A stretch of DNA of 63,411 nt from positions 1 through 63,411 of the IMG/VR virus record IMGVR_UViG_3300030106_000472; one strand, written 5' to 3'. The notes below the pieces were generated by a model. It saw only the letters and a list, made by a program, of their open reading frames with translations, ran no database searches and was not told the origin of the DNA. Both the position numbers and the translations under genes were made by a program. Positions within the stretch are counted from its first letter, which is position 1; every line of letters begins with the position of its first letter. Positions 38,002-46,469 of the stretch are shown in pieces. This DNA comes from a virus.

Positions 38002-38974
38002 ATCTCTTATTACCTGCTTTATTAAATGCATCTAATCTAGCAATACCCATAGCATGACTACCGTCGCCTGCTGCATCGACTGCCGCTTTCGATAACATAT
38101 ATTCTCCGTTACTCGCCATAACAGGAATTAAATCATCTTTAGGACCTCCTGGACCGTGCATAGCACCACCATGAGGCATGAACATAGGTCTTTGTAATAC
38201 TTTACCTTCGTTAGCAAAAGTAACAGTTGAACCACCTATAGGATTCATTTTTAATTTTGATCTTCTTCTAGCTGCGTTTCCAGGAAGTGTTTCAGTTCTA
38301 ACTAAACTTCCTCTAGGTTTATCTTTCCCGCCTAATAATCTTTGGAATATTGCTGTTCCTATGTCTCCTAATCCTTTATACATCGCAGCAGAAACCATAG
38401 GGTCTTGACCCTCTATAAATTGTTCCATTTTTTCCAATCTACTTAATTCCATTTCAGGAAGTTCTGGAGGAGTTATTTCAGGACTCAAATCCGCAAACAT
38501 CTGTTCTTCCATTAAGTCTTCAGGATCAGGCATTTCTATTTCAGAAAAATTTACATCTAAAACACCTGTTGTCATTTCAGGAGGGTCTTCAGGAATTAAA
38601 CCTTCTTGTTTTAATAATTCTATAATACCTAAATTACCGCCGTTAGCTCTGTTTAGATAACCACCTACAGCCATACCTGCAAGACCGTATTGATCTAAAT
38701 CAGCTACGTCTACACCCGCTTCTTGTAATTGTCGTAATATAAGTTCTTGTTGACCGTCATCAGGTTTGGCTAAATTTTCGAATTGAAAATCTCCAAACTC
38801 TTGTACTTCACTACCTGCAACAGGAGCTATTTCCATGTCAGGTCCAGGACTTAATGAGGGTGAAGTACCACTGCCGATTTGTGCGGGCATATCAGGATCG
38901 CCAGCAATTTTACTACTTATAACATTAGTTGCAACGCCTACCGCTGTTAATGTTGCTATTACTCCTAAACTCAT
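37994..38974 (-). CDS. Virion-type protein with the GPGGPKDD...GEYMLSKAAV motif (326 aa)
   Basis: The N-terminus matches that of the 601 aa protein at 1578-3383. The C-terminal region GPGGPKDDLIPVMASNGEYM, LSKAAVDAAGDGS and GIARLDAFNKAG is a motif common in phage tail and internal proteins. Glycine motifs (VGGYLNRANGG, MPHGGAMHG) occur in between. It is probably a virion component; no enzymatic motif is seen. Confidence 0.65.
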   Translation of the reverse strand: MSLGVIATLTAVGVATNVISSKIAGDPDMPAQIGSGTSPSLSPGPDMEIAPVAGSEVQEFGDFQFENLAKPDDGQQELILRQLQEAGVDVADLDQYGLAGMAVGGYLNRANGGNLGIIELLKQEGLIPEDPPEMTTGVLDVNFSEIEMPDPEDLMEEQMFADLSPEITPPELPEMELSRLEKMEQFIEGQDPMVSAAMYKGLGDIGTAIFQRLLGGKDKPRGSLVRTETLPGNAARRRSKLKMNPIGGSTVTFANEGKVLQRPMFMPHGGAMHGPGGPKDDLIPVMASNGEYMLSKAAVDAAGDGSHAMGIARLDAFNKAGNKRYG

Positions 38975-39519
38975 GTTAAATCCTCTATAATTTTATCTAT
39001 TTGTTTTACATCGAAACCTTTTAATTTTAGTTTAGAAAAATCATCAACGGTTATTTCGTTTACAACGTCATCAATATTTAAACAATCTGTTCTATGTACT
39101 GTTATAAAAGTACATTCTTCATGTATATATAAAACTCTTTTTGTACCTGCTTCAGTTATTCCATGAAAAGGTGCTTTTATACGCTCTACACCTTTATCAC
39201 TATAAATAGATGCTTCGCCTTTCATAATAAAGAAAGGATGGTTTTTAGAATGTATTTTAGTTGAAACTAGTAAATTTTTAGGCATAACTATTTGTCTTAT
39301 ATACTGACCATCTGCAAAGTTATGCGTAACAGCTCCTTCGGTTTGACCTGTTATTTGATTACTTAGTTCTTGGTTGTTGTTTTCTTCACAGTGTTTAGTA
39401 ATTGCTGCTTCAAACTTTTTTATTTTGTTTTGAAATTTTATTTTGTTTTCTTTATAATCGAAAAACTCGCAAGCTTCCTGATACGATAGTTCAGGATTTT
39501 TAACTAATGCTTTACTCAC
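38971..39519 (-). CDS. Cupin-like protein (182 aa), GTG start
   Basis: A helical N-terminal part (1-60) is followed by a beta-barrel pattern: GQYIRQIVMPKNLL, HSKNHPFFIMKGEASIYS, APFHGITEAGTKRVLYIHE and TFITVHRTD. The His residues fit cupin metal positions, but the role is unknown. Similar proteins are frequent in marine phage structural regions. It starts with GTG, overlapping the stop of the 35 aa gene as TAGTG, and couples ATGA-wise to the next gene. Confidence 0.7.
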   Translation of the reverse strand: MSKALVKNPELSYQEACEFFDYKENKIKFQNKIKKFEAAITKHCEENNNQELSNQITGQTEGAVTHNFADGQYIRQIVMPKNLLVSTKIHSKNHPFFIMKGEASIYSDKGVERIKAPFHGITEAGTKRVLYIHEECTFITVHRTDCLNIDDVVNEITVDDFSKLKLKGFDVKQIDKIIEDLT

Positions 39520-39711: not shown

Positions 39712-41445
39712 TCAAAAAGTGTATATTTTTAAAGGTTTTTCTTTACCTTTTACTTTTATTGGTTTTAACGGTCTTAGTGTTATACCACAGTAAAGCTCTG
39801 TTTCTTTCCCTATTAGTATGTTTACACCTGCTTCTTTAGTTGCTGATTCTAGTCTAGCAGCGGTATTAACAGCATCTCCTATGGCTGAATAATCGAACCT
39901 AGTATCACTACCCATGTTGCCTATAACCGCTTCACCTGTATTTACACCTACACCAATTTCTACACCAATATCAGCGTTTATTATATTTTCTTGTATTTCT
40001 TTTGCACATTTCACAGCTACTTGTTCGTGATGTTTTAAATCCATAGGTGCATTAAATATTGCCATCATAGCATCGCCAATATACTTGTCTACCATTCCTC
40101 CATATTTTTGTACTGCATCAGATTGTATTGTTAATGCTTTATTCATTATCGAAGTTACTTCTTCTGGTGAAAGTGTTTCAGATAAAGCTGTGAATCCTCT
40201 AACGTCTGTGAACAAGAAAGTACACCTTCTTTTTTCACCACCTAATTTCAATAAGCTAGGGTCTTTTTGTAAACGTTTAACTTGTCTAGGGTCAAGATAA
40301 TGTTCAAACTGTTTTTTAATTTGTTGTCTAAGTTTGTATTGTTCTCTAAATCTTAAATAAAAAGCTATAGCTCCTGCGATAAACTGCGAAACTAAAGACC
40401 ACGTAACATCTATCAAAAGACCTGTGGTTATCGTGTAGTAACCGTATACGCCCGTTAAAGCCATCGTAAGTAAAGCTAAGCTTACGCCCCACGTTATCCC
40501 TAAATAGCTTATAAACGCCCATACGAGCACCACAGACACTATAAATATTAAAAGTTCTAAAGCTAATGCGTAATCAGGTATATAAGGACTATCTTGTATA
40601 AGAATGCTTTCTGCAAGTGCTGCTTGTATTTTATGTGGTTCAAGTAAACCAACAGGAGTTGCAACTTGCGGCATTACTCCATTAGCGGTAACGCCTACAA
40701 ATACGAATTTACCGTTTACGTCCATTTCCTGTAAATCTGTTTGTGGTGTATCTACCCAACTAATCCACTTACGACCAAGACTATCTGTTTTAACTGGTGG
40801 TATTCCTCTAACAGCTATTTCTTGTACACCATTTTCATTAGTCGTAATAATATACGTACGGGCTTCTGTTAAACTTTTTAACACATGTGTTCCGAAAGAA
40901 GCAGTCCAACCGTCAGGAGTTCTTAATAAAAGTGGAATACGTCTAACTAACTGGTCTACTTCAGTAGGGGCTATAGCAACTCCTTGTGGTACGTCATCGT
41001 ATAGATAAAAATTTCGTTTTACTCCTGTAGAAGAAAGACCACCAACATCAGGTCCTTTAATTACTGTTCCTGTTGTTTTAGGATAGTTTTGATTACCGTC
41101 TTCAAACGTAGCTATTACACTTGGTGCATAACCTAACGAACTAGCAAATCTTTGGTCTCCGCCCATTCTGTCTGCTTGTGGAAAAGAAATAACCCAACCA
41201 ACACCTATGGCTCCTTTGCCTAATATTTCTAACTGTATATTAGCTAAACGTTCTCTAGGTAATGGATAACCCCCTTCTCTTTCTACATCGTCTTCAGTTA
41301 TATTTAGAATAACAAAATTACCAGACGGTTCTTGTTCTTGTATTAAGGCATCAAACGTTTTTAATTTAAGTATTTCTGTCGGCGTTGTTTGAAATAATAA
41401 AGGTAATACAAGTATTGCTAATATAGGTATTATCAGTTTTTTCAT
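39712..41445 (-). CDS. CHASE2-domain class III adenylate/guanylate cyclase
   Basis: 577 aa. N-terminal membrane segment (4-18), an extracytoplasmic CHASE2 sensor domain (about 25-290; FDALIQ, VILNITEDDVEREGGYPLPR, GKFVFVGVTA), three membrane helices (about 292-366), then a cyclase catalytic domain (about 405-577). Metal Asp414 (FTDVRGF) and Asp458 (YIGDAMM), Lys454, and transition-state Asn527/Arg531 (DAVNTAARLE) are all intact. Ser520 stands where class IIIb enzymes usually have Thr and IIIa Asp. ATP to cAMP is the likely reaction. It is the last gene of the CsgF-CsgG-curlin-FecR run. Such an intact receptor cyclase is very unusual in a phage. Confidence 0.9.
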   Translation of the reverse strand: MKKLIIPILAILVLPLLFQTTPTEILKLKTFDALIQEQEPSGNFVILNITEDDVEREGGYPLPRERLANIQLEILGKGAIGVGWVISFPQADRMGGDQRFASSLGYAPSVIATFEDGNQNYPKTTGTVIKGPDVGGLSSTGVKRNFYLYDDVPQGVAIAPTEVDQLVRRIPLLLRTPDGWTASFGTHVLKSLTEARTYIITTNENGVQEIAVRGIPPVKTDSLGRKWISWVDTPQTDLQEMDVNGKFVFVGVTANGVMPQVATPVGLLEPHKIQAALAESILIQDSPYIPDYALALELLIFIVSVVLVWAFISYLGITWGVSLALLTMALTGVYGYYTITTGLLIDVTWSLVSQFIAGAIAFYLRFREQYKLRQQIKKQFEHYLDPRQVKRLQKDPSLLKLGGEKRRCTFLFTDVRGFTALSETLSPEEVTSIMNKALTIQSDAVQKYGGMVDKYIGDAMMAIFNAPMDLKHHEQVAVKCAKEIQENIINADIGVEIGVGVNTGEAVIGNMGSDTRFDYSAIGDAVNTAARLESATKEAGVNILIGKETELYCGITLRPLKPIKVKGKEKPLKIYTF

Positions 41446-42563
41446 TAATCACTTTGAGTAATAGTAATTACGCTATCACTTCCTCCATTAACTTTAATTA
41501 TATTAGATACCCCGTCCTGTATCAAAATAACCGTATAAGCATTACCACCATCTAAATCAACTCGTACACTTTCATTTACTTGTCTTCGTAAGCTAATAAC
41601 ATTGCCTGTTATTAAAGTTGTTATCTGTGTATCTGGGTCTTTACCTAAAAGAGTTCCTGATATTTGTGTGCTTGTTGCTTGTGCTAATTGATCTTCTTCT
41701 TCTGCTACAGCTAATGCATCTAATACATTTAATAAATCTTCTAAATAATTTACGTCAAGATAATTTATATCTAGTTCAGTAAATTCTAAATTATCTTCTT
41801 TTAAAAAATCTTCTGCAAGATAGTCTATGTCTAAGTCGTTAAAATCTAATACGCTATCTGTTTGTGCTGTAGTAGTTTCTTCTTCAATACTTTGTTCTTC
41901 TTTGGGAGGAGTGACGATGAGCATATTATCTATTACATCTAACGTTAAATCCAGGATAACAGGTTTAGTAGGAGCAGATTCAAATACACTTACTGTAGTT
42001 GCTTCATACGGTTTGTTTAATATAACGGTTCCCATAGCAGTAACTACTTCTATTTCTCCACTAGATAAACCTAAAGGGTCTGGAAGTAAAATAATAAGTG
42101 AACGTCCTAGTTCGTCAACAGTCGCTGTGAAATCTGTTCCACGAATTGCTATGTTTGCCGTAGGTGTTTTAAGTGTGATGTTTTGTTTATCTATACGGTT
42201 TAGATTACCTGTAATAAACCTTGCTGTGCCAAGACCAAACGTAAGAGCCATTTTTGCTTTACTAGGATCAGGGTCATAGATGTATTCATCTATAAGAAGT
42301 TGAGAGTGTTCGGTAAGTTTTACTGTAGAATTATCAAGAAATGTAATAGCCATACGACCATTTGTTGTTATGGCTTCATCGTTGCTTTGAATAGCAAACT
42401 TTAAATTAGCTTCGTATGGTTTGTCTCTTAGTATTTGTGCTGAACCGTTTAATTCAGATATGCCACCAATATCAGCATCCGAGACTTGTGCCTTGATCGT
42501 TTTGAACGACACACACAGAAGAAGCAGCATTACCACCGACGGATATAATTTTAAGCCAGTCAT
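41445..42563 (-). CDS. Exported FecR-domain protein
   Basis: 372 aa with a signal peptide (hydrophobic VVMLLLLCVSFKTIKAQ). The FecR domain spans about 30-200 (LNGSAQILRD, NGRMAITFLDNSTVKL, TPTANIAIRGTDFTATVD). An acidic Leu/Asp-rich linker with LDIDYL-like repeats (about 230-290) and a beta-rich end follow. FecR-domain proteins act in the periplasm, often in signalling or envelope assembly. TAATG couples it to the cyclase gene, as in some bacteria where FecR and CHASE2 genes are neighbours. The start overlaps the curlin-like gene by 92 nt; ATG 42530 is an alternative. Confidence 0.8.
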   Translation of the reverse strand: MTGLKLYPSVVMLLLLCVSFKTIKAQVSDADIGGISELNGSAQILRDKPYEANLKFAIQSNDEAITTNGRMAITFLDNSTVKLTEHSQLLIDEYIYDPDPSKAKMALTFGLGTARFITGNLNRIDKQNITLKTPTANIAIRGTDFTATVDELGRSLIILLPDPLGLSSGEIEVVTAMGTVILNKPYEATTVSVFESAPTKPVILDLTLDVIDNMLIVTPPKEEQSIEEETTTAQTDSVLDFNDLDIDYLAEDFLKEDNLEFTELDINYLDVNYLEDLLNVLDALAVAEEEDQLAQATSTQISGTLLGKDPDTQITTLITGNVISLRRQVNESVRVDLDGGNAYTVILIQDGVSNIIKVNGGSDSVITITQSD

Positions 42564-43203
42564 TATCTTGGGTACTCAGTTGTTGGATATTAAATGTTCT
42601 TTGTCCGCCTGTATGATCTAGGTAAAAATATCCACCTGCTGAAGCATTTACACCTGTTCCTAAATAAGTAACTGTGTTATCACTACCGTCAATATCCATA
42701 AAGTTAGTAGCCCCATCAATATTTATTGTTGATGTGACCGTGTTATTAGATCCTTGTATTATCCAGTCTAAATCTAAAGATGCTGCTAACGCTGTCGTTC
42801 CTTGATTTAAAGTGAACGTATTGCTACTGCCTGTAACAGCAACATTGTGGTTAGAGCTATTAGCCCCATAAGTATTCGTTGGGTCTACTTGTATAGTGAA
42901 ATTATTAGTTGAGCCTGTAAAGTTGTAAGCTCCTGTAAAACTATTAGCTGTTATATCTCCAAGAAATTTATTAGTTGCACCAATCATATTGATGTCTAAT
43001 GTCATTCCTGTTCCATCTAAATCGAAAGGATTCAAGCTGCCTGATGTTGAATTAAGACCACCAATAATATTAGAAATACCTAGTTGCTCTAGGTCTATAT
43101 TGGCACCAGTTCCTGACTGATCTACATATATCTCATTATCAGCCGCAAATAACGGAAATAAAGTAAGACATAACAAAAGTTGTATGCACTTCTTCATCAT
43201 CAT
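42472..43203 (-). CDS. Secreted curlin-like repeat protein
   Basis: 243 aa with a signal peptide ending near PLFAADNE. The first repeat, NEIYVDQSGTGANIDLEQLG, has the Q-x-G-x-G-x-N...Q pattern of curlin (CsgA/CsgB) repeats. The rest has degenerate Asn/Thr/Gly repeats (SNTFTLNQG, SNNTVTSTINIDG) that suggest a stacked beta solenoid. A Cys is the last residue. The adjacent csgG and csgF genes make it the likely secreted substrate. Too diverged to be called csgA. Confidence 0.7.
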   Translation of the reverse strand: MMMKKCIQLLLCLTLFPLFAADNEIYVDQSGTGANIDLEQLGISNIIGGLNSTSGSLNPFDLDGTGMTLDINMIGATNKFLGDITANSFTGAYNFTGSTNNFTIQVDPTNTYGANSSNHNVAVTGSSNTFTLNQGTTALAASLDLDWIIQGSNNTVTSTINIDGATNFMDIDGSDNTVTYLGTGVNASAGGYFYLDHTGGQRTFNIQQLSTQDNDWLKIISVGGNAASSVCVVQNDQGTSLGC

Positions 43204-43207
43204 AATT

Positions 43208-44044
43208 TCATTCTACCTTTTTTTCCTCGTTTTGTAAAACCCAATAACCTCTTTCATAACCTTGTTTAATTATTTCTAACACACCACCCTCAATAGCTTT
43301 CATTAAAGCTATGGTAGATGACTCGTTTCTTGCGTTACCCATTTCTATTTCTACTAGTTCAGTACCTGCTTCAATAAATCTAAATACGTCATTAGATTTG
43401 CCATAACTAAAAATAGTTTTCTGGCTTAATACTTCTAACAATACTTCTCCTGTAGCTACAGAAACCATTCTAAGACTAACTGTAATATTATCTTCCCTAT
43501 ATTGAACGCTAGTACCAATACCTAAATATCTTGCACCAGAACCCCCAGATTCTAAATTAGATTCATAAGATATAACAGCACCTTCTATTAAAATACCTGC
43601 GAATAATAACGGTGCTAATTGTTTTTTCTTTTCTTCTTCGCTTGCAAACTGTTCCCTTGCTGAACGTATTAATTGTCTTTCTTTAGTTAGGTTATCTAAA
43701 CCAACTCTTTCAACAACTCTAAAAAACTGACCATTACCTGCGTGTTTTAAAGCTCGGATAAGAAGTGCGTTTGGTTGTTGGGTTATTGCGGTACTAAACA
43801 AAGCAAACTCACTGTTACTTTTACGTTGCCCTGTTTGATCAGTAAATGCCGTAGGATATACAGCAACAACAGGACTGACTTTAGGAACTTCTACATCACG
43901 TAAATAAGGAGATTGTAGTTCTTGTATAGAAACTACATTATGTGCTTGAAACCTATGTTCGTACGTATCTTCAAGTTGATCAAAAGTAGAACAACTAGAA
44001 AGTAAAAGTACCGATAGGAATAACGATCGTTGTAATTGTACCAT
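43208..44044 (-). CDS. csgG: CsgG-type outer-membrane curli secretion channel
   Basis: 278 aa lipoprotein: lipobox LLSSC with Cys18. VVAVYPTAFTDQTGQRK, ALIRALKHAGNGQFFRVVER, RQLIRSAREQ, LLFAGILIEGAVISYES, ARYLGIGTSVQYREDNITVSLRMVS and ATGEVL match CsgG across its length, including the region of the membrane hairpins. In bacteria nine subunits form the pore that exports curlin. Start at 44044 overlaps csgF by 50 nt. Confidence 0.85.
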   Translation of the reverse strand: MVQLQRSLFLSVLLLSSCSTFDQLEDTYEHRFQAHNVVSIQELQSPYLRDVEVPKVSPVVAVYPTAFTDQTGQRKSNSEFALFSTAITQQPNALLIRALKHAGNGQFFRVVERVGLDNLTKERQLIRSAREQFASEEEKKKQLAPLLFAGILIEGAVISYESNLESGGSGARYLGIGTSVQYREDNITVSLRMVSVATGEVLLEVLSQKTIFSYGKSNDVFRFIEAGTELVEIEMGNARNESSTIALMKAIEGGVLEIIKQGYERGYWVLQNEEKKVE

Positions 44045-44528
44045 CTGACTCAGTTATAGTTAGGGTTAATGTTGTGCCATCGCTTGTATATTCAATGGTG
44101 TTGCCCTCCAAGGTTATTGTACCTGAATTTTGAGGTGTTTCCCCAAACAGGTTTGCCACTAACTGTCTAGATAACTCAGCATACACTCTTGATTCAAGAT
44201 TACGCATAAATCTTGCAAGAGTAGAATTTTCTTTTTCTCTTTTAATTTCGTCTTGTAACGCTTTTATTTCTTCTTTGAGTGTAAGTTTACGACTAAATTC
44301 TTGATTCTCTATCGTTAGGTAATGTGATGATGTACCAACTCCGTTAAAACTAGGTGATTTAAATTTATGTACTATTTGGTCAGACCAAACATTTTGAACA
44401 AATATAGCTCCTAATAAAACTACACCAATAACACCGACTATACGAGCAATTAAAACTTTTTCAGCTTCTTGTTTTCTTTGTTTTAGTTCCGCGTTGCTTG
44501 GTCGTCCTCTTTTCTTTTTTATTGTCAT
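43995..44528 (-). CDS. csgF: CsgF-like protein with an N-terminal membrane anchor
   Basis: 177 aa. Residues 53-75 (VHKFKSPSFNGVGTSSHYL) resemble the mature N-terminus of CsgF, which plugs into CsgG. Residues 104-177 (LARFMRNLESRVYAELSRQL...ITESDGTITTIVIP) match the CsgF C-terminal half. Unlike E. coli CsgF it begins with a basic stretch containing the AT-hook-like KKRGRPSNAEL (5-15) and an uncleavable-looking membrane segment (26-46). That suggests anchoring in the inner membrane. GGAGG precedes the start. It overlaps csgG, so the two are made together. Confidence 0.75.
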   Translation of the reverse strand: MTIKKKRGRPSNAELKQRKQEAEKVLIARIVGVIGVVLLGAIFVQNVWSDQIVHKFKSPSFNGVGTSSHYLTIENQEFSRKLTLKEEIKALQDEIKREKENSTLARFMRNLESRVYAELSRQLVANLFGETPQNSGTITLEGNTIEYTSDGTTLTLTITESDGTITTIVIPIGTFTF

Positions 44529-44766
44529 TCAATACCTCCTGCTCTTTTAGCTGTAATACTGTATTGACTTTTTGTTGTAATCGTATCATGTCTTGGTCTA
44601 ATAAACGAAGTTGATCTGTTAATCTTATAATTGTGCCTTTCATTTCTTGCACTGCTGGGTCTATTGTATTCGTTATCGTTTGCCATACATAATAAACGAA
44701 GTAACCCAGTCCTACCACCATCACTACAGGAAAACCAAAATCTGCTATTAATTGAGCTACATCCAT
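44461..44766 (-). CDS. Small membrane protein with coiled coil (101 aa)
   Basis: N-terminal membrane segment (about 11-32: FPVVMVVGLGYFVYYVWQ), then an amphipathic coil and a basic tail. It resembles in layout the next protein upstream, so the two may be tandem relatives. Holin or membrane adaptor are the main options. TAATG-coupled to the upstream gene; overlaps csgF by 68 nt. Confidence 0.65.
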   Translation of the reverse strand: MDVAQLIADFGFPVVMVVGLGYFVYYVWQTITNTIDPAVQEMKGTIIRLTDQLRLLDQDMIRLQQKVNTVLQLKEQEVLNDNKKEKRTTKQRGTKTKKTRS

Positions 44767-45062
44767 TAATCCCTTCTAGCATCTATCTTTCCATCTTCTA
44801 CAAAATTTTCTGCTCTTGCTATCCTGTCTAGGTCTGGTGCTATGTTTAATGCACTCGATACGCTTGTATCTATTCTTATCATGTCGTTATTCATAATAGA
44901 CGCTCTGGTAATTAACATTTTAGTAATACCTTGAACTGTTTTTATTTCATCAACTAAACCACCCATAAGTTGTTTCATAATTAAAAATATAAAATACGCC
45001 ATGACTAACGCACCTGCAATAGGAACGCCAACTTCGGCTATTAATGCAAAACCCTGTTCCAT
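44766..45062 (-). CDS. Small membrane protein with coiled coil (98 aa)
   Basis: Membrane segment at about 12-33 (VPIAGALVMAYFIFLIMKQL), then a polar helical part with NNDMIRIDTSVSSAL. Same layout as 44461-44766 (FGFPVV versus VGVPIA). AAGAAGG lies before the ATG. Holin-like, not proven. Confidence 0.65.
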   Translation of the reverse strand: MEQGFALIAEVGVPIAGALVMAYFIFLIMKQLMGGLVDEIKTVQGITKMLITRASIMNNDMIRIDTSVSSALNIAPDLDRIARAENFVEDGKIDARRD

Positions 45063-45547: not shown

Positions 45548-45973
45548 CTAATCCTCTACGGGTGTAAATTTCCCTAGTTCTATTAACTTTTCCCTATTGA
45601 TTAAATGCTCTGCTTCTACATCATTTTTAGATTGACCAAAGTAAGCAACAGCTAAATGATTTATTACCATAGTTTCATTAATATTTAATCCATCAACAAT
45701 AACATTACCTAAAACTCTGCCGTATTTACCTCTAGAATCTTTTAATTTAGTTTCTATAACAATTTTAGTTCCCTTATCTACAGCATTCTTTAAGAAAGTC
45801 GCAGCCATTTTTCCTCTAACTTTCTCATCTTTGTCACGAGTACGTGACTCGGGAGTATCAATACCATATAAACGAACACGAGACTTAAACCTAATGTCAA
45901 ACCCAAGATCCAAAACAACGTCAATAGTGTCCCCATCAACAACTCTTTCAACCGTACAACCATATTCATACAT
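45548..45973 (-). CDS. Staphylococcal-nuclease-type (thermonuclease) protein
   Basis: 141 aa from ATG 45973 (TAATG coupling with the upstream stop). VVDGDTIDVVLDLG, RVRLYGIDTPESR (Arg and Glu catalytic positions) and GKYGRVLG are the family motifs. It has no signal peptide. Phages may use such nucleases to degrade host DNA or RNA. Confidence 0.85.
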   Translation of the reverse strand: MYEYGCTVERVVDGDTIDVVLDLGFDIRFKSRVRLYGIDTPESRTRDKDEKVRGKMAATFLKNAVDKGTKIVIETKLKDSRGKYGRVLGNVIVDGLNINETMVINHLAVAYFGQSKNDVEAEHLINREKLIELGKFTPVED

Positions 45974-46272
45974 TAGCACTTCCACCTTTTTCTTGCTTGT
46001 CGCAATCTTGAATTAGGATTCTTAGCCGCTTTAGGAAATTTCTTCATCTGTCCTGCACTTCTAGCACAATAAGACTTTCTTCTTTTTGCTGCTTTGCTTC
46101 CTTTTTTAACTTTTCCTGTTACAGCTGTTTTTAATTTACTTCCAGGATTCTTTTTTCTATATGCTTTAACGCCTTTCTTAGTCATGCCTGCCCCACTTTT
46201 AGTAGGACGGTAATTTGCACCTTTACCTTTAGTGGTACGTCTTATAGACTTTTCTTTACGTTTTTTAGCCAT
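45973..46272 (-). CDS. Lys/Arg-rich conserved phage protein (DUF6321-like)
   Basis: 99 aa, very basic. GAGMTKKGVKAYRKKNPGSK, LKTAVTGKVKKGSKAAKRRK and SYCARSAGQMKKF followed by RKRWKC match a widespread phage protein family of unknown function. Basic charge suggests nucleic-acid binding. Coupled to both neighbours. Confidence 0.75.
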   Translation of the reverse strand: MAKKRKEKSIRRTTKGKGANYRPTKSGAGMTKKGVKAYRKKNPGSKLKTAVTGKVKKGSKAAKRRKSYCARSAGQMKKFPKAAKNPNSRLRQARKRWKC

Positions 46273-46469
46273 TATTTTTTCTTACTTTTCTTTTTAGGTT
46301 TTTTAGCTGTTTTAGCAGAACGTTTAAAAGCAGCCGCTGTTGGTGCACCTTTAGCTCCTTTTTTACGCATTTTTCTGCCTTCTTTACGTTTTTTATTTAT
46401 GTTGTAATAAAGACCTTTTTTAGCTATTCTGCCGTCTTTAGTTTTATGTGTTTTCTTTTTTGCTGCCAT
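46272..46469 (-). CDS. Lys-rich small protein (65 aa)
   Basis: Lys/Arg/Ala-rich throughout (KKTHKTKDGRIAKKGLYY, AKKPKKKSKKK at the end). Histone-tail-like composition suggests DNA binding or packaging in the virion. One-base overlap with the DUF6321-like gene. Confidence 0.65.
   Translation of the reverse strand: MAAKKKTHKTKDGRIAKKGLYYNINKKRKEGRKMRKKGAKGAPTAAAFKRSAKTAKKPKKKSKKK

Follow-up and report, generated by a model that had tools for sequence, protein, structure and literature searches.

The genes csgF and csgG have been reported in pelagimyophages (PMC7029224), and CsgF, CsgG, a curlin, a FecR protein and an adenylate cyclase have been described together as a type VIII secretion (T8SS) module that HTVC023P-type podophages share with myophages and that is expressed in metatranscriptomes (Wittmers et al. 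2022; PMC9599517). The lining of the CsgG channel in E. coli is provided by the first 27 residues of CsgF (PMC7304575). The CsgE plug stimulates curli formation, yet it is not essential (PMC7029224), and alphaproteobacterial curli modules also do without it (PMC9599517). In bacteria, FecR proteins occur with a CHASE2 kinase in a Burkholderia biofilm operon (PMC5192318) and with CHASE2 cyclases in gene clusters of Campylobacterota (PMC9239204), and in Sinorhizobium a barrel protein of the outer membrane mediates the response of CHASE2 cyclases (PMC13001267).

The window analysed here, the whole 63,411-nucleotide stretch of IMG/VR virus record IMGVR_UViG_3300030106_000472, carries these genes on the minus strand at 39712–44528 in the transcription order CsgF, CsgG, curlin-family protein, FecR protein and CHASE2 class III cyclase (Table 1). 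An earlier note, made from the sequence alone, had claimed five coupled leftward open reading frames for a curli block with an intact cyclase; all five are present at the coordinates that it gave, their overlaps and junctions of 1–4 bases were found as described, and the observation is confirmed. The module boundary was drawn too tightly, as two more small genes at 44461–45062 (S1 and S2) belong to it. Pfam profiles directly place four of the five proteins (CsgF, CsgG, FecR, and CHASE2 plus Guanylate_cyc for the cyclase), and existing PHROGs phage families likewise cover four of the five. Signal peptides and a lipobox-like LLSSC at the N-terminus of CsgG were read by eye.

Table 1. Genes of the curli module in the window, with the family assignment of each.
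Gene product	Position	Strand	Profile match
CHASE2–transmembrane–class III (class IIIb type) adenylate cyclase, predicted	39712..41445	-	PF05226 1e-22, PF00211 1.5e-20
FecR-domain protein, exported, curlin-like C-terminal strand	41445..42563	-	PF04773 5e-10
Curlin-family protein (CsgA/B-like), exported, predicted beta repeat	42472..43203	-	family profile
CsgG, outer-membrane curli pore	43208..44044	-	PF03783 1e-46
CsgF, curli channel accessory protein	43995..44528	-	PF10614 4e-15
S1, 101 aa, paralogue of S2, overlaps CsgF	44461..44766	-	weak holin-profile similarity
S2, 98-aa small membrane protein, first gene in module	44766..45062	-	phrog_18771 1.7e-23

The terminase and DNA polymerase are closest to those of HTVC023P, HTVC027P and 023Pt_psg01 (52–58% and 48–54% identity, respectively), with DSL-LC04 similarly close, and by these two proteins we class the window as an HTVC023P-type relative. 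The same gene order recurs in many independent IMG/VR contigs, which, together with a GC content matching the surroundings, rules out a chimeric assembly join. Among loci picked by their closeness to the window, so that the fractions describe its relatives, curlin, FecR and cyclase follow in every one of the 47 CsgG loci that extend 4.5 kb or more downstream, and S, CsgF, CsgG, curlin and FecR are all present in each of the 38 cyclase loci that extend 4.2 kb or more upstream. All seven module genes are under purifying selection, with median dN/dS values against the window of 0.08–0.15. The myophages HTVC008M and Melnitz carry the block at another genomic place, and it is not bound to one location. 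In the GenBank record of HTVC008M, CsgF, CsgG, the cyclase and a curlin protein labelled CsgB-like are already annotated. That of Melnitz lists a FecR protein along with two curlin-repeat proteins, in agreement with Pfam, and the published statement that Melnitz has no fibre genes (PMC9004378) is contradicted. The combination of curlin, FecR and cyclase with csgG and csgF, which the earlier note took to be new, had been published as a pelagiphage set in 2022 (PMC9599517).

For the published module, Wittmers et al. (2022; PMC9599517) describe one or two histidine kinase genes ahead of CsgF in every case. In the window, this place is held by S1 and S2, which run into CsgF. S proteins are of about 100 residues with a single hydrophobic segment and a coil-like region, and all belong to phrog_18771. 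All 101 loci with enough upstream sequence have S genes ahead of CsgF, singly in 71 and as a pair in 30, and HTVC008M and Melnitz also carry them before CsgF. None of 14 S members matched a kinase Pfam family, HATPase_c was found in none of four phages (the window, HTVC008M, Melnitz and 023Pt_psg01), and a histidine kinase identity was rejected for these small membrane proteins. Because S genes occupy the described position yet carry neither a kinase family nor HATPase_c, position and domain searches together suggest that the published kinase genes are most likely the S genes and that the label is wrong. We read the absent kinases as a mislabel in PMC9599517 and not as grounds against module membership.

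The block sits in a run of co-oriented late genes, 2.7 kb downstream of a lysozyme gene. Directly downstream of the cyclase, positions 38971–39519 match the phage tail-fibre/adhesin families phrog_12032 and phrog_24280, so that virion genes on the same strand come after the curli block. The interval between lysozyme and block encodes a staphylococcal-nuclease homologue (45548–45985; PF00565) and very Lys/Arg-rich small proteins at 45973–46272 (DUF6321) and 46272–46469, which look histone-like by composition. A promoter and terminator scan gave signal no better than shuffles, and neither Rfam families nor tRNAs were found in the window. The lysozyme gene invites a reading in which CsgG, with or without CsgF, has been repurposed as a pinholin- or secretin-like envelope pore that times lysis, the fibre being secondary and the S proteins holin-like helpers. 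Such a role of CsgG was proposed for Melnitz (PMC9004378); a lysozyme also lies near the block in related podoviral loci and in the phage contig L214, and S proteins, S1 among them, have weak similarity to a holin profile. We consider this improbable, as only 20 of the 67 loci that extend far enough have a lysozyme homologue in the neighbourhood of the block (divergent lysozymes could escape detection), whereas curlin, FecR and cyclase are always kept; the Melnitz record contradicts the absence of fibre genes, and the channel-binding segment of CsgF is conserved.

This segment, of the CsgG-binding type FxxPxFxG, follows the signal region of CsgF and reads VHKFKSPSFNGVGTSSHYL in the window; its F56, P59, F61 and G63 are invariant, being kept in 25 of 25 aligned phage proteins, and it resembles the corresponding stretch of a CsgF from a cellular alphaproteobacterial curli operon, L211 (VHQFTNPSFGGNPFNSSHLL). 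Its conservation argues against phage CsgF having stopped pairing with CsgG. An unusually long charged region (KKKRGRPSNAELKQRKQEAEK) stands ahead of the hydrophobic segment at the CsgF N-terminus; it contains an AT-hook-like RGRP, and its length differs among relatives. CsgE (PF10627) was not found in the window, HTVC008M or Melnitz. Of the components of curli (type VIII) secretion, the window thus has the CsgG pore and CsgF, together with a curlin subunit recognised by family profile, and no CsgE.

The curlin assignment comes from the phage family; the window protein has degenerate repeats and gives no direct match to Pfam Curlin_rpt. The family profile retrieved two cellular curlin-type proteins (E values of 1e-4 and 3e-4), and the one from L211 matches Curlin_rpt at 7.5e-17. 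Myophage members of the family also match Curlin_rpt directly (5e-8 for the second curlin of HTVC008M, 9e-6 for the first of Melnitz, and 2e-4), and by this route the curlin-like protein claimed by the earlier note is supported as a curlin-family member. An AlphaFold model (mean pLDDT 81) is an all-beta repeat. Foldseek returned no significant match to it (best E 0.5), and in a VIA comparison SufB/SufD beta-helices ranked first, with the CsgA fibril at Z 11.8 over 110 residues and an rmsd of 8.8. The model supports a predicted beta-solenoid and no more specific fold.

For the FecR and CHASE2 genes, bacterial genomes provided the comparison. Among 133 CHASE2 matches listed from 142 alphaproteobacterial genomes, at least 32 have a FecR gene within 3 kb, where gene density would predict about 0.6 such pairs, taking a 4 Mb genome. 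FecR lies upstream of CHASE2 in 20 of the 24 same-strand bacterial cases among the matches listed, as it does in the phage; in the window, the FecR gene stands directly upstream of the CHASE2 enzyme gene on the same strand, the arrangement of the bacterial sensory pair. FecR–CHASE2 is a pre-existing bacterial sensory pair. A locus in a Pelagibacter-type family genome (L217; G013:C1:321000-330000) encodes a CHASE2 protein in a 683-aa open frame, followed some 2.4 kb further on by FecR and without a class III cyclase match; it could be a chromosomal counterpart of the phage sensor pair.

In the phage FecR protein, the FecR domain (PF04773) was the only domain found, with no sigma-binding N-terminal domain, and the window, possibly a fragment, gave no Sigma70_r2 match. 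The sigma-binding domain and partner ECF sigma factor of iron-responsive FecI–FecR regulation were thus both missing from view, which makes such a regulator unlikely here and the 'iron regulator' label doubtful. The same findings bear on the proposal that the channel imports nutrients or cofactors such as siderophores, with FecR as an iron-responsive regulator (PMC9599517). The name of the FecR domain speaks for it, as does the lack of a CsgE plug, by which the channel could remain open. We nevertheless give this proposal little credence: the partners of FecR in phage and bacteria are CHASE2 enzymes, the domain stands alone with no sigma factor region 2 in the window, and import leaves the curlin unexplained.

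The cyclase residues Asp414, Lys454, Asp458, Asn527 and Arg531 lie exactly where the earlier note had placed them, and at least 125 of the 127 unique phage homologues share them. They comprise the metal-binding D414 and D458, K454 of the base-recognising pair, and the catalytic N527 and R531; the second base residue is S520, a position that is Ser or Thr in 126 of the 127 unique phage proteins. When aligned to CyaC (1wc1), K454 and S520 coincide with the CyaC Lys and Thr, a pair that we take to mark class IIIb adenylate cyclases. Judged by these residues, the phage CHASE2 protein is an intact adenylate cyclase of the class IIIb type, predicted to make cAMP.

A reader of this cAMP was sought through cNMP-binding domains. 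Four phages gave no match, and among 60 genomes of unstated completeness from the family of a Pelagibacter assembly, just 2 contain such a domain. A class III cyclase was likewise present in 2 of the 60 Pelagibacter-type family genomes, in both cases on contigs bearing the phage block. If the host is SAR11, the phage would supply a second messenger without a visible standard receptor. This scarcity of receptors in the phages and in most SAR11-family genomes is what might be expected if cyclase and FecR were passengers inherited with the curli genes, their signal unused by the phage; in a related, more distant phage contig (L214), moreover, FecR is present and the cyclase missing. Passenger genes are hard to reconcile, however, with catalytic residues so widely kept, with purifying selection and with retention of the cyclase in all 47 close relatives, and we hold this explanation to be very unlikely.

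The C-terminus of the FecR protein offers a candidate link to the fibre. Of the unique phage FecR proteins, 121 have intact ends; they are related and do not count as 121 independent events. Every one of them finishes in [VI]x[VI]xQ plus 1–3 residues, a pattern found in none of 1574 background ORFs, and 117 of the 121 have a curlin-like half motif (hxhxQ[DN]GxS) within the last 45 residues. Similar C-terminal ends occur in the curlins of HTVC008M, Melnitz and L211; the tail is absent from three cellular FecR proteins adjoining CHASE2 genes. Profile methods do not establish the tail as a curlin homologue: hmmsearch gave no significant curlin match (best E 0.32), and hhalign gave an E value of 0.0045 but a probability of 7.8. 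The C-terminal part of the FecR AlphaFold model, with a pLDDT of about 30–48, was left unused. That the tail couples the sensor physically to the fibre is a testable lead suggested by these motifs. Extended further, FecR could report physically on the state of the curli machine: its curlin-like strand would dock on curlin or inside the CsgG channel, and its FecR domain would tell the CHASE2 cyclase if fibre export proceeds. If true, the phage would encode a feedback sensor, and an as yet unrecognised SAR11 receptor would read its cAMP, but we think this unlikely in its full form.

Our preferred reading, in which we place somewhat better than even confidence, is a pelagiphage type VIII (curli) secretion module that builds a fibre on the infected cell and couples it to an envelope-sensing cyclase. 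CsgG would form an outer-membrane pore, lined and anchored by CsgF, through which the curlin-family protein would reach the surface of the infected cell and form a fibre there. The CHASE2 cyclase would sit in the inner membrane with its sensor outside and catalysis inside, and with the exported FecR protein it may monitor either the envelope or secretion itself and control how much cAMP is made. The fibre, the stimulus that is sensed and the role of the cAMP are inferred here, and the benefit is most likely a changed surface of the infected cell, through aggregation or superinfection exclusion, both earlier proposals. The reading draws on the Pfam families, the curlin link, the fixed gene order, dN/dS, the CsgF segment, the catalytic residues and the FecR–CHASE2 linkage, and further on the same block in HTVC008M and Melnitz, the published precedents and the co-oriented late-gene setting. 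Against it stand the few cAMP receptors, the lack of CsgE, the degenerate curlin repeats and the absence of a Foldseek match, as well as the culture of Melnitz, in which neither fibre nor clumping was observed (PMC9004378). The pore, fibre and cAMP proposed at the outset were a sound inference, save that the cAMP has no known reader, and that first interpretation of the block as a whole is partly supported.

The phages that carry the module are relatives of those infecting the ocean's most abundant bacteria, hosts without curli of their own. The picture is sharpened in three respects: the small genes at the head of the module are unlikely to encode kinases, FecR more probably works with the cyclase as a sensor than as a regulator of iron, and almost none of the host-family genomes sampled has a known receptor for the cAMP.

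A CsgG scan of cellular genomes yielded five loci, four with the phage-type block (L165–L168), which look like phage contigs binned in MAGs, and one (L169) with CsgG and no block partners; a cellular source of the whole module was rejected on these grounds. The phage-block contigs L165, L166, L167, L168, L213, L214, L215 and L216 are filed in public databases as parts of cellular assemblies under the names Maricaulis, Flavobacteriaceae, Rhodobacteraceae and Pelagibacter, where surveys would read them as host curli or cyclase genes. A 1499-base record of Salmonella phage S.Kent 1-2-1 (OR851715.1) also encodes CsgG and is probably a host fragment.

Compared with known systems, the window is nearest to the T8SS module of Wittmers et al. 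(2022), with which it shares an identical order of small leading gene(s), CsgF, CsgG, curlin, FecR and cyclase; the leading genes, called histidine kinases there (PMC9599517), are small membrane proteins in the window, and the second curlin gene of HTVC008M and Melnitz is absent from it. The two cellular alphaproteobacterial curli operons examined (L211 and L212) have CsgF, CsgG and curlin-repeat proteins in common with the phage module but, unlike it, have no FecR, CHASE2 cyclase or S genes nearby. Since the FecR–CHASE2 pair is bacterial and these curli operons carry neither of its members, the phage module appears to join two bacterial units. The Campylobacterota clusters share the exported FecR-domain protein beside a CHASE2 cyclase; as described, they contain no curli genes and, unlike the phage, add a phosphodiesterase and a TPR protein. 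The Burkholderia BiofilmReg operon pairs FecR with a CHASE2 histidine kinase, also without curli genes, where the phage has a cyclase. The class IIIb cyclases CyaC (Spirulina, 1wc1) and CyaB (Pseudomonas aeruginosa, 3r5g) have the same catalytic domain with its metal and base residues; the predicted phage cyclase differs in its CHASE2 sensor and phage context. The module itself was already described (PMC9599517), and what is added here is the probable identity of the published kinase genes with the S genes, the lack of a known cAMP receptor in the phages and in most SAR11-family genomes, the FecR–CHASE2 pair and the FecR tail.
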